Source: Haloferax denitrificans ATCC 35960 (lineage in GTDB: Archaea; Halobacteriota; Halobacteria; Halobacteriales; Haloferacaceae). From it: a DNA stretch of 64,000 nt. Every line of letters starts with the position of its first letter. The first letter of the stretch is position 1. Both the position numbers and the translations under genes were made by a program. Below the pieces are notes generated by a model. The model was not told the DNA's origin and made no database searches. It worked only from the letters and a program-made list of their open reading frames with translations. The DNA is taken from contig NZ_AOLP01000004.1 of NCBI RefSeq assembly GCF_000337795.1, forward strand, positions 186,001 to 250,000, written 5' to 3'. Positions 14,259 to 39,113 of the stretch are shown here, piece by piece.

Positions 14259-15335
14259 ATGGCTGAACAAGAGCCGAAGGAACTCCTAGAGATGAGTACC
14301 GACACGGAGCGTCTCCTCGAGGAGAACGACCTGCGACCCCTCTGGGAAGTCGAAAAGGACTTCGGAAACCAATTCGGCGGGTTCGAGGCGGACATCTGGA
14401 AGTGGGAGGATATCCAGGCATCCATCGACGCCATCGAACAGGACGTCCCCATCGCGGACCTCCCGCCGGGGTTCCAGCGACGCGTCGCCGTGCCCGTCAA
14501 CACGGGATACCGAAACGCCATCTCGAACACGATTTACGTCGGCGTCCAGACGGTCTCGCCCGGCGAGACCGCGCCGGCACACCGACACGGGGCGAACGCG
14601 CTTCGGTTCACTATCGACGGGAGCGAGGACATGAAGACCGTCGTCGCGGGCGAGGAGTTCCCCATGCGGGACAACGACCTCATCACGACGCCGCAGTGGG
14701 AGTGGCACGACCACGTCAACGACGGCGATGAGACGGCCGCGTGGCTCGACGTGCTCGACCTCCCGCTCGTCCTCGACTCGCTCAACGCGCGCAACACCTT
14801 CGAGAACCACGAACTCGACCGCCAGCCCGTGACGAAGTCGCAGGGGTACTGGGAGTCGCAGTACGGACGCGCCCGCCCGTTCGAGGACACGAAAGAAGAC
14901 GGGATTCCCGGCCCCTTCGAGGGGAACTGCGCCGCGACGCCGCCGTACCGATTCAGCTGGAAAGACACCCTCCAGACTCTCCGACAGCGAGCGGACAACG
15001 ACGACCCGGACCCGCACGACGGCTACAGCCTCTCGTACGTCAACCCCGCGACCGGACAGCCGCCGCTGTTCCCGACGATGTCGTTCCGCGCGCAGTTGCT
15101 CCAAGAGGAGACCGACCCGCACTTCCACAACGCCGTCGACGCGTACTTCGTCATCGAGGGCGAGGGCGCGACGCACGTCGGCGACGACGTGCTCGAATGG
15201 AGCGAACGCGACATCTTCGTGATTCCGCCGGACGAGATTCACCACCACGACCCCGACGGCGAAGCGATTCTCCTCGGGATGACCGACCGCCCGGTGTTCG
15301 AGGCGTTCAACTTCTACGCCGAGGCCGAACCGTAG
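14259..15335 (+). CDS. Gentisate 1,2-dioxygenase-like bicupin
   Basis: This 358-residue two-cupin protein has the usual length of gentisate 1,2-dioxygenases, which open the ring of gentisate to maleylpyruvate using Fe(II) and O2. The N-terminal cupin has PAHRHGANALRFTIDG (His pair) and the partner WEWHDHVNDG. The C-terminal cupin has DPHFHNAVDAYFVIEGEG and EIHHHDPDGEA. Two starts upstream are possible, but the TATA element favours MAEQEPKELLEM. A gentisate dioxygenase of this type is known from Haloferax sp. D1227. The winged-helix gene that follows on the opposite strand is a candidate regulator. A salicylate or 1-hydroxy-2-naphthoate dioxygenase of the same family is the alternative. Confidence 0.9.
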   Translation: MAEQEPKELLEMSTDTERLLEENDLRPLWEVEKDFGNQFGGFEADIWKWEDIQASIDAIEQDVPIADLPPGFQRRVAVPVNTGYRNAISNTIYVGVQTVSPGETAPAHRHGANALRFTIDGSEDMKTVVAGEEFPMRDNDLITTPQWEWHDHVNDGDETAAWLDVLDLPLVLDSLNARNTFENHELDRQPVTKSQGYWESQYGRARPFEDTKEDGIPGPFEGNCAATPPYRFSWKDTLQTLRQRADNDDPDPHDGYSLSYVNPATGQPPLFPTMSFRAQLLQEETDPHFHNAVDAYFVIEGEGATHVGDDVLEWSERDIFVIPPDEIHHHDPDGEAILLGMTDRPVFEAFNFYAEAEP

Positions 15336-36757: not shown

Positions 36758-37082
36758 GATTGAAGTCGTCTCGAAGAACAGTCGGGAATCATTTGAGCCC
36801 TCTGCTAACTAAGAAGTGTTTTTATAAGCTGAAAGACTCCCCCACCGAGACTGGGGTCGGCCTTGCAAGAGAACACGACCTCAACCAACGAACCTCGACG
36901 CTACTCACCGGGTGTTGAGAGGAGTAATAGACTTGCCGGAGTACTCGTTCGTTGTTGGTTGCCGGTTTTACTGGCAATAGTGGTGTGTCTGACAGAGTGA
37001 TCGGAAATAGCCTATTTCAGAATAGCCTATTCTGAATTTGGTTATCGGCACGGTTAACTTCTTAGAAGAATAACTGAGGATT
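36758..37082. other. Intergenic region with paired palindromes upstream of the ATPase gene
   Basis: No gene. It holds an imperfect long inverted repeat (36882-36893 with 36947-36961) and two overlapping perfect palindromes at 37004-37034. The ATPase gene starts 48 bp after the second. Confidence 0.45.
37004..37034. promoter_or_regulatory. Two overlapping palindromes with core AATAGCCTATT
   Basis: GAAATA-GCC-TATTTC occupies 37004-37018 and CAGAATA-GCC-TATTCTG occupies 37018-37034, sharing one base. Both have perfect arms and the same GCC spacer. They are a likely double operator for the ATPase gene at 37083. Confidence 0.6.
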
Positions 37083-38468
37083 ATGGAACGCTTTGTGAAT
37101 CGGGAAGTCGAACTATCTCGGCTGCGAGAGTGCTACACGTCCGACAGCCCAGAGATGATTGTCATCTTTGGACGGCGTCGTCTCGGAAAAACGCAACTCG
37201 TTCAACACTCACTCACGCAGCGAGATGACGCCGTCGTATACCAAGCGACGCAGACAACACCACAGGTACAACTCGATGAATTCGTTGACACGGCCACCGG
37301 TTCCTTTCCCGGAATTGAACATATCAAACAGAATTGGGAGTCACTACTCGGGTACCTCGTCGAACAAGGAGGGGTTGTCGTACTCGACGAGTTCCCGTAT
37401 CTCATCGACGCCGACAAGAGCATCCCTTCGGTAATTCAGCGATTGTGGGACCAACGCCTGCAGAACACGAGTGGAACACTCATTCTCGTTGGTTCATCGA
37501 TTAGTATGATGGAGGAGGCGACGCTGTTAGGAAACAGCCCACTTTACGGGCGGTTCACCGAGAAGATTGATCTTCGGCAACTCGGATTTGCTGCTGCTCA
37601 GGAGTTCTTCCCCGAAAGCTACACACCCGAAGACCGGGTTTTTGCGTGGGGCGTCTTCGGTGGTGTCCCATACTATCTCGACGGCATCGATCTTGATCAC
37701 GACCTCGGAACCGTGATTTCTGAATCCCTCCTCTCACAGCGAGGATACCTCCATAACGAACCGGAGTACGTCCTTCGAACTGAGTTAACTGAGCCGAACC
37801 GATACTTTGCAATTCTCAAGGCCATTGCTGCAGGGAATACCATGTCAAACGAGATTGCACAAATGGTTGGGATCGACGGAAAGCAGATTTCGACCTACAC
37901 CCAGAAACTAGAGCGCCTTCGGCTCATCGAGCGCGAAGTCCCACTCACAGAGGAGAAAGCTCGCTCTCGCCGTGGCCGCTACCGAATTCTCGACCCACTG
38001 TTTCGGTTCTGGTTCCGATTTGTATACGGGAATGAAGACCGATACGAGCGATTGGGCGACGAAGCGTATGAGGCAGTCATCGAGCCCGAACTCCCTGACT
38101 TCGTGAGTTCACAGTTTGAGATCCTCTGCCAAGACGCACTTCCTGGATTGTATCCAAATAAAACGTTCTTAGATATCGGTCGGTGGTGGTACAAAGAACA
38201 CGAAGTCGACGTCGTTGGTTTCACTACGGATGGAACAATGGTCGTCGGGGAATGTAAATTCACGAATGCTCCGCTCGACTATAGTGCTCTTGCGTCGCTC
38301 GAAGAACATACAGAAGAGATCAGGTGGACTCCTGACACAGAGGAGAGTGTTGACAAAGAGTATGCGCTGTTCACCCGGAGCGGGGCGACCCAGACTGTTC
38401 AAGAGGCAGTTGCAAACCGGGATGACTTGCGGCTGTTTGGATTAGATCACATAACCAATAACGTGTAA
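37083..38468 (+). CDS. Archaeal ATPase (ATPase_2 plus DUF234-like C-terminus)
   Basis: This 461-residue protein has an N-terminal P-loop ATPase (FGRRRLGKTQL at about 28-38, Walker B VVVLDEFPYL near 98-107, sensor LILVGSS), a middle winged helix (IAQMVGIDGKQISTYTQKLE) and a C-terminal DUF234-like domain with nuclease-fold features (DVVGFTTDGTMVVGECK, giving D...E-x-K). This layout is shared by a large archaeal family of uncertain function, sometimes linked to mobile elements or defence. It stands alone except for the small gene downstream. The paired palindromes upstream suggest tight control. Confidence 0.88.
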   Translation: MERFVNREVELSRLRECYTSDSPEMIVIFGRRRLGKTQLVQHSLTQRDDAVVYQATQTTPQVQLDEFVDTATGSFPGIEHIKQNWESLLGYLVEQGGVVVLDEFPYLIDADKSIPSVIQRLWDQRLQNTSGTLILVGSSISMMEEATLLGNSPLYGRFTEKIDLRQLGFAAAQEFFPESYTPEDRVFAWGVFGGVPYYLDGIDLDHDLGTVISESLLSQRGYLHNEPEYVLRTELTEPNRYFAILKAIAAGNTMSNEIAQMVGIDGKQISTYTQKLERLRLIEREVPLTEEKARSRRGRYRILDPLFRFWFRFVYGNEDRYERLGDEAYEAVIEPELPDFVSSQFEILCQDALPGLYPNKTFLDIGRWWYKEHEVDVVGFTTDGTMVVGECKFTNAPLDYSALASLEEHTEEIRWTPDTEESVDKEYALFTRSGATQTVQEAVANRDDLRLFGLDHITNNV

Positions 38469-38611
38469 CACACAGTTCTTGGAAGTCCGAGGTGCAAGCA
38501 TTCCGAAACACCAGTCAATCATTGAGGTCGAGGATAGCAATGGGTCAACTGATGTGTTCGCTGAGTTCGATTCCTGCGACAAGGTCGTCCGCCCAGAGTG
38601 ACGAACTGGCC
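38469..38611 (+). pseudogene. Possible 3' remnant of an unidentified gene
   Basis: A frame without a start codon, from about 38476 to the TGA at 38609-38611, reads FLEVRGASIPKHQSIIEVED and then STDVFAEFDSCDKVVRPE. It looks like real protein but lacks an N-terminus. It overlaps the head of the next small gene in another frame. The family was not recognised. Confidence 0.3.
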
Positions 38612-38815
38612 GAATACAAGGAGCGCGAGGCTCGTCTTGAGGAAGAGCCACCGGAAGGTGAGTTCGAAGAACGGTCGGACGACCTTCCAGATGATGTCCC
38701 TACGAAGGCGACGATTACGATCAAAGAGATCAACGACAATCGCTACTACTACTGGCAGTGGCGAGAGGGTGACAAAATCAAATCCAAATATAAAGGACCA
38801 GTCAACGACAACTGA
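38551..38815 (+). CDS. Small acidic conserved-looking protein
   Basis: The credible part is the 70-residue C-terminal region: DELAEYKEREARLEEEPPEG, then DLPDDVPTKATITIKEINDN and YYYWQWREGDKIKSKYKGPV. It resembles small haloarchaeal proteins of the DUF6788 type. No ATG lies immediately before the conserved part. The nearest in-frame ATG is about 38551, which would add 20 unlikely residues; another lies upstream at 38492. The native start may have been lost in a rearrangement with the remnant upstream. Confidence 0.5.
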
Positions 38816-39113
38816 GTAGCAAGGACAACTTCCATGGCTGTAATCTGCTCGCTTTGCAGACAGTACTGTTCTCCGGTCGTACATACTATCTTGTCGTGAT
38901 AGTTGGTTGAGACACCGATGTTACCAGTACTGCTAATCTGTAATCAGTCAGTAGCGTGTGGGAAGTCTCGTAAGCGGAGTGGGGGCCCGTGGCCGAGAGA
39001 ACGCGACGCTCGCCGCCTGAGCGCGCCTGACCGCACCCAGACGTCGAATCGGCGACCCGCCGCGGACGAGCAAAACACACATACTGACTCGCTCCGAATC
39101 GCGGCTCGGAATC

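Follow-up and report, generated by a model that had tools for sequence, protein, structure and literature searches.

Judged by eye on their translations, most genes of the window analysed here, a stretch of 64,000 nt of the genome of Haloferax denitrificans, are metabolic. A search for tRNA genes over the full 64 kb found none. Between about 14000 and 40000 the G+C content is lower than elsewhere (54-63% versus 62-74% per 2 kb), and the genes of this part, again by eye, include a sugar ABC transporter, aldo/keto reductases, an amidase and regulators. The features considered below are a gene for an ATPase with a C-terminal DUF234 domain and a set of palindromic sites directly upstream of it (Table 1). 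Two of the sites are perfect dyads with a centre-to-centre distance of 15 bp. A degenerate copy makes a further step of 15 bp, and the array as a whole (37004-37045) runs up to a TATA-like element that closes it. The TTAA centre of that element, cggcacggttaac, lies some 27 bp upstream of the ATG, a distance that fits a leaderless transcript, and we consider it a probable BRE/TATA-like element. A scan for sigma-70-type promoters between 36700 and 38700 returned 0 sites, as expected for an archaeon. The first-pass annotation had described two perfect dyads with a common GCC centre, overlapping by one base when the second is taken to span 37018-37034, and a distance of 48 bp between 37034 and the ATG at 37083; the DNA reads exactly so. 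It was silent on the 15-bp pitch, the third copy and the TATA-like element.

Table 1. Coordinates of the palindromic sites, the promoter-like element and the ATPase gene with its domains in the window.
Feature	Position	Strand	Remarks
Site 1, perfect dyad GAAATAGCCTATTTC	37004-37018	.	7-bp arms, centre 37011
Site 2, perfect dyad TTCAGAATAGCCTATTCTGAA	37016-37036	.	10-bp arms, centre 37026
Site 3, degenerate copy ATTTGGTTAT	37036-37045	.	Third 15-bp step; from the alignment of 16 upstream regions
BRE/TATA-like element cggcacggttaac	37046-37058	+	Conserved block in the alignment of 16 upstream regions; putative promoter role
ATPase_2 - winged helix - DUF234 protein, 461 aa	37083-38468	+	Pfam PF01637, PF03008
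Walker A GRRRLGKT, residues 30-37	37170-37193	+	G30, G35 and K36 invariant in 38 sequences
Walker B VVVLDE, residues 98-103	37374-37391	+	D102 and E103 invariant in 38 sequences
Winged helix, residues 239-302	37797-37988	+	AlphaFold2 model
Probable recognition helix, residues 266-278	37878-37916	+	Assigned on the model; subfamilies differ here
PD-(D/E)XK nuclease core, residues 362-392	38166-38258	+	E374, D376, E390 and K392 invariant in 38 sequences

Both Pfam domains of the protein score well above their curated cut-offs (PF01637: E 1.1e-23, 84.6 bits, cut-off 33.2; PF03008: E 1.3e-18, 67.7 bits, cut-off 22.5), which places it in the ATPase_2-DUF234 family. The intact P-loop and the nuclease-like segment noticed at first reading are both present and conserved, as G30...G35-K36-T37 and D376...E390-x-K392, and the winged helix is real as well. 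The AlphaFold2 model of the whole protein (mean pLDDT 93) consists of an AAA+ fold, a winged helix (helices 239-249, 255-262 and 266-278; strands 282-285 and 299-302) and a C-terminal domain. When modelled alone (pLDDT 90.6), the C-terminal domain matches a Pyrococcus repair endonuclease, NucS/EndoMS and MspJI (E 1.6e-4 to 4e-4, TM about 0.5). With the D...E-x-K set of residues on a nuclease fold, the modelled domain is of the PD-(D/E)XK nuclease type, and nuclease activity is predicted for it. The best fold matches of the remainder are the archaeal AAA+ ATPases PABY2304 (PDB 2qen; residues 1-313, VIA-align Z 22.9) and SSO1545 (PDB 2fna; residues 1-312, Z 21.4). Their chains count 350 and 352 residues, respectively, and the alignments stop at residue 312-313, so that the nuclease domain falls outside. 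Next come STAND proteins of the NLR/CED-4 type and Orc1/Cdc6. The protein combines Walker A and B motifs on an AAA+ fold with a winged helix behind it and is thus a member of the STAND/Orc1-Cdc6-like AAA+ group; the G-x-P motif G194-P196, which we take to be significant for STAND proteins, is invariant. A phmmer search against solved structures gave only weak matches to TnsC (E 0.044 and 0.092), and this candidate was set aside.

The protein also matches the profile of PDC-S27 (PADLOC PDLC04984) nearly over its full length (E 1.2e-42, residues 1-414) and belongs to that family. A 2026 survey describes S27 as an ATPase plus PD-(D/E)XK protein that is abundant in archaea, and validation as pending for most candidate defence families of this kind (PMC12988326). 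PDC-S27 combines ATPase_2 and DUF234, the same build as the ATPase studied here, which would thereby have a candidate antiviral role. The earlier suggestion of a defence gene accordingly stands as far as this family match carries it, and the alternative of a toxin-antitoxin module was rejected: such a module would consist of two adjacent, co-inherited genes, and no partner recurs beside the ATPase gene among the ORFs of at least 90 aa in 19 neighbourhoods (see below). A report on the regulation of PDC-S27 was not found in open-access full text.

The core of the dyad sites, AATAGCCTATT, has two exact occurrences in the genome (3.83 Mb), both in this array. The window holds 16 perfect odd-centred dyads with arms of at least 7 bp, versus 9.0 expected from shuffles, and sites 1 and 2 form the only pair among the 16 with centres 3-25 bp apart. 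Shuffling the whole window gave a comparable pair somewhere in 8 of 200 cases; 5000 shuffles of the intergenic region 36761-37083 gave no such pair, and a dyad with 10-bp arms in 4. A second dyad with 10-bp arms is found at 14561, and such a dyad arose in 43 of 200 whole-window shuffles. Moreover, equivalents of both perfect sites are present in near orthologues. In an alignment of 16 of these loci (at least 75% identity; L016 and L097 left out) the array and the TATA-like block are 62-76% identical and the remainder 7-40%. The third site, which is 1 base shorter here than in the relatives, is better kept in several orthologues. In one upstream region (L009, -80 to -40) the middle site of three has a GGC centre instead of GCC; the palindromic unit can thus flip, which is consistent with recognition as a dyad.

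Matches were present in 61 of 98 related genomes and in 135 of 294 genomes of the phylum, and the homologues compared here were taken from part of these matches. Each upstream region was compared with itself at every shift, and a 15-bp repeat was called significant when no more than 2 of the 200 shuffles of that locus attained its score. For the first 84 loci, 15 bp was the best shift in 59.5 (ties shared). Counted over loci that are partly related and hence not independent, so that separate events are fewer than the fractions suggest, a significant 15-bp repeat precedes 70 of the 78 haloarchaeal homologues with at least 42% identity (control region further upstream: 1/78), 12 of the 26 with less (2/26), 12 of the 56 from other Halobacteriota (1/55) and 29 of 40 bacterial homologues among the best 80 of at least 568 loci (2/39). 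Below significance were 8, 14, 44 and 11 loci in these four groups. The archaeal counts cover 160 of 161 loci. L111, with upstream DNA of just 81 bp, and the same-gene repeats L001-L002, L087-L090, L098, L100 and L102 were dropped from the comparisons that followed the first 84 loci, and the bacterial set leaves out archaea and L284 (short upstream DNA). In the bacterial set 15 was the best shift in 31 of 40 loci versus 1.4 expected from shuffles. The control region is not always at shuffle level in this respect, with 4.1 of 39 bacterial and 5.1 of 26 distant haloarchaeal loci. The repeat units tend to be palindromic in addition: 50 of 105 showed 6-7 complementary pairs out of 7, versus 10% of permuted units (105 of 190 upstream regions, those with a 15-bp score of at least 9). 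The sites that the first-pass annotation had proposed to look for upstream of homologues are therefore clear among the closer haloarchaea and these bacteria, and less clear in the distant haloarchaea and the other Halobacteriota. Judged by such sequence comparison, an evenly spaced upstream array is a trait of the ATPase_2-DUF234 family in archaea and bacteria, and with conserved sites at the gene's own promoter it has the make-up of an operator array. Self-regulation as a principle, and the domains involved, are already known; a fixed-pitch, private operator array of one ATPase-nuclease family in archaea and bacteria was not found described in open-access full text. One Haloquadratum paper with many mentions of palindromes concerns, in its accessible part, transposable elements and was put aside.

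The pitch is common to the family and the spelling is not. By eye, the repeat reads AATAGCCTATT in the clade of the window and, for example, GAGTATGATACTTC, AAATACCCTATTT, GAAATCGTGATTTC, AACTATTATAGTT or TCATTATC...GTAATGATTA in other subfamilies. The likeness of two operators was scored as the presence of a common 15-mer with at least 13 matches and binned by protein identity, for 155 of the 161 loci (L085, L097, L136, L146, L147 and L148, short or cut, were left out). Such a 15-mer is present in 74% of the pairs at 70-85% protein identity, 44% at 60-70%, 23% at 55-60%, 12% at 50-55%, 4% at 45-50% and 0.4-1.8% below 45%. The corresponding values for the control region are 0.6-1.3%, but 5.3% above 85% identity. 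The likeness thus drops with protein identity to reach background below about 45%, and the DNA further upstream has no such trend. Operator type follows the relatedness of the ATPases across genera. In addition, four paralogues within the genome of the window have four different upstream sequences by eye, with a significant 15-bp repeat in two (L003, L053) and one below significance in the others (L067, L086). The same pitch with an own spelling for each relative suggests, from these comparisons, that each protein may switch its own gene. A related situation is reported for the RepA proteins of rhizobial repABC plasmids, several of which occur per genome and each of which specifically autorepresses its own operon (PMC4492784). 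RepA is a ParA-family protein of a replication operon, whereas the protein discussed here is a single-gene ATPase-nuclease with a 15-bp array.

The tandem patterns of two subfamilies were also searched in 392 genomes without reference to genes, and a mirror-pattern control over the same genomes gave 0 matches. From the 33 array places, 32 were read (that on contig 32 of G624 was left out). Behind 22 of the 32 lies an intact ATPase of the expected family, behind three a truncated one (L190, L191, L197) and behind one (L194) a different paralogue. The other six (around position 1500 of L173, L174, L181, L186, L188 and L199) are well kept and have no ATPase within about 1.5 kb; they may be gene remnants or targets in trans. 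At one locus (L016; G056:C6:434000-434575) about 490 bp separate the array from the expected gene start downstream of it, and the gene match begins at residue 15, as if the start of the gene had undergone an insertion or rearrangement. No neighbour family recurred in more than 3 of 19 neighbourhoods (up to 6 kb on each side, ORFs of at least 90 aa, frames inside the ATPase gene not counted), and within this scope the ATPase gene is the sole gene seen co-inherited with the array. The gene itself is probably accessory, to judge from another Haloferax denitrificans genome that lacks a match to the tandem pattern and in which the best match to the DNA of the gene is 64% identical. Homologues are found on 165 plasmid records, and eight relatives of less than 60% identity on phage records (seven gut phages and one Wolbachia phage). 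The DNA just 3' of the gene (38600-38839) has two matches of 89-90% identity on a single contig in a genome of the same species and is a repeated piece that is possibly mobile.

As no neighbour is seen co-inherited in the neighbourhoods covered, the sequences are private and the protein has a winged helix, self-binding is the simplest view, and we consider it probable that the array is the operator of the ATPase itself, whose winged helix would bind it and control its own transcription. The suggestion of autoregulation in the first-pass annotation in this way gains good, indirect support from the arrays upstream of homologues. The dyad sites at their fixed pitch, two perfect and one degenerate, would form a promoter-proximal operator beside the TATA-like element, on which several protomers would bind side by side, with cooperativity, while the ATP state or another signal would set the strength of control. 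Each subfamily would have co-diversified with its own operator sequence, and such private operators would prevent cross-regulation among paralogues in one cell.

When protein windows were scanned for covariation with the operator, the recognition helix did not stand out: in three bands of identity its best ranks were 64, 17 and 208 of 451. Within this helix K271, spotted by eye beforehand, is the best of 940 residue-columns for the AGTAT half-site (9 of 15 clusters versus 1 of 23; p = 2.5e-4, lost after correction for 940 tests), and ranks 4 of 940 and 6 of 875 in looser versions of the test. The half-sites GATTA, GATTT and ACTAT do not point to 271K (ranks 712, 737 and 454 of 875). The test in which K271 ranks first used 143 of 230 loci, those with a score of at least 8; some genes occur twice among the 230 and are absorbed by the 60% clusters. 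That the scan does not point to the recognition helix would fit a separate host regulator that binds the array, with the ATPase as a mere target, and so would the six arrays without an adjoining ATPase. We regard this as improbable, however, since paralogues of one genome differ in their upstream sequence and operator type tracks the ATPases across genera, and since every subfamily would need a regulator of its own that is passed on without linkage, no other gene being co-inherited nearby in the 19 neighbourhoods. Equally improbable in our view is that the array serves chiefly as a site of assembly or as a centromere-like element, comparable to iterons and partition sites, with transcriptional control in second place. 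The position at the gene's own promoter, the many copies on contigs of 1-4 Mb that are probably chromosomes and the lack of a recurrent replication or partition partner in the neighbourhoods argue against such a site, although the even pitch with at least two copies (by eye), the plasmid-borne homologues and the fold kinship to Orc1/Cdc6 are in its favour. The dyad pairs seen in shuffled windows might recommend a chance palindrome without function, but conservation in near orthologues and the family-wide pitch refute this as far as comparative data can, and its probability is negligible.

Within self-regulation, repression of the own transcription is the most likely sign and would take about two thirds of our confidence in that reading. 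The possibility that the ATPase, on the same array, would activate its own promoter by recruiting basal factors has a clearly smaller share of the same confidence and is not additional to it. In the clade of the window three sites lie directly upstream of the BRE/TATA-like element. Haloarchaeal activators also bind upstream of the TATA element, and the sign of control is therefore unsure. Against activation, the palindromic sites of distant haloarchaea and many other Halobacteriota, by eye, adjoin the start codon or run into it, the median distance from the end of the repeat to the start codon downstream is 21 bp in the 29 significant bacterial loci among the best 80 of at least 568, and some bacterial copies, in a comparison of 79 of these 80 loci, lie just 3' of a TATAAT-like box. 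Sites so close to the start codon are in repressor-like places and speak for repression.

The DUF4143 ATPases (AAA_14 type), which we presume to be linked to PDC-S01, resemble the present family in that some have upstream repeats. A control set of 30 loci was drawn from 97 matches, which 12 of the 15 genomes searched had yielded, with start codons set by rule from the Walker A motif, which makes the control a rough one. None of these 30 loci, from 12 bacterial genomes, has a significant 15-bp upstream repeat; 15 was the best shift in L334, at a score reached by 7 of 200 shuffles. Nine of the 30 have a significant repeat at another pitch, namely 23 bp (L316, L322, L332, L333) or 32 bp (L328, L336, L337, L338, L339). 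Possibly these arrays represent the same principle in a different geometry. According to the survey, S01 joins an ATPase to a domain of the PD-(D/E)XK type (PMC12988326), as in the ATPase_2-DUF234 protein.

A further reading, which we offer as tentative and on balance doubtful, is that of a self-sensing immune switch for which the array would be the platform of assembly. The promoter would be coated by its own STAND-like ATPase through winged-helix half-sites in alternation; a signal from a virus or mobile element would then alter the nucleotide state and strip the protein off, and a nuclease burst would follow. If so, the subfamilies would be immunity groups, comparable to those of phage repressors or to plasmid incompatibility groups, private operators would let several copies share one cell, and in the sister DUF4143 ATPases this principle would operate with steps of 23 or 32 bp. 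More generally, should every copy be kept under control by its own protein through a 15-bp array, direct tests could be made of the regulation, of the DNA that the winged helix targets and of the oligomeric state. The family would then provide many natural protein-operator pairs for the study of how DNA specificity diverges, and an array without a gene may serve as the sequence tag of a lost copy.
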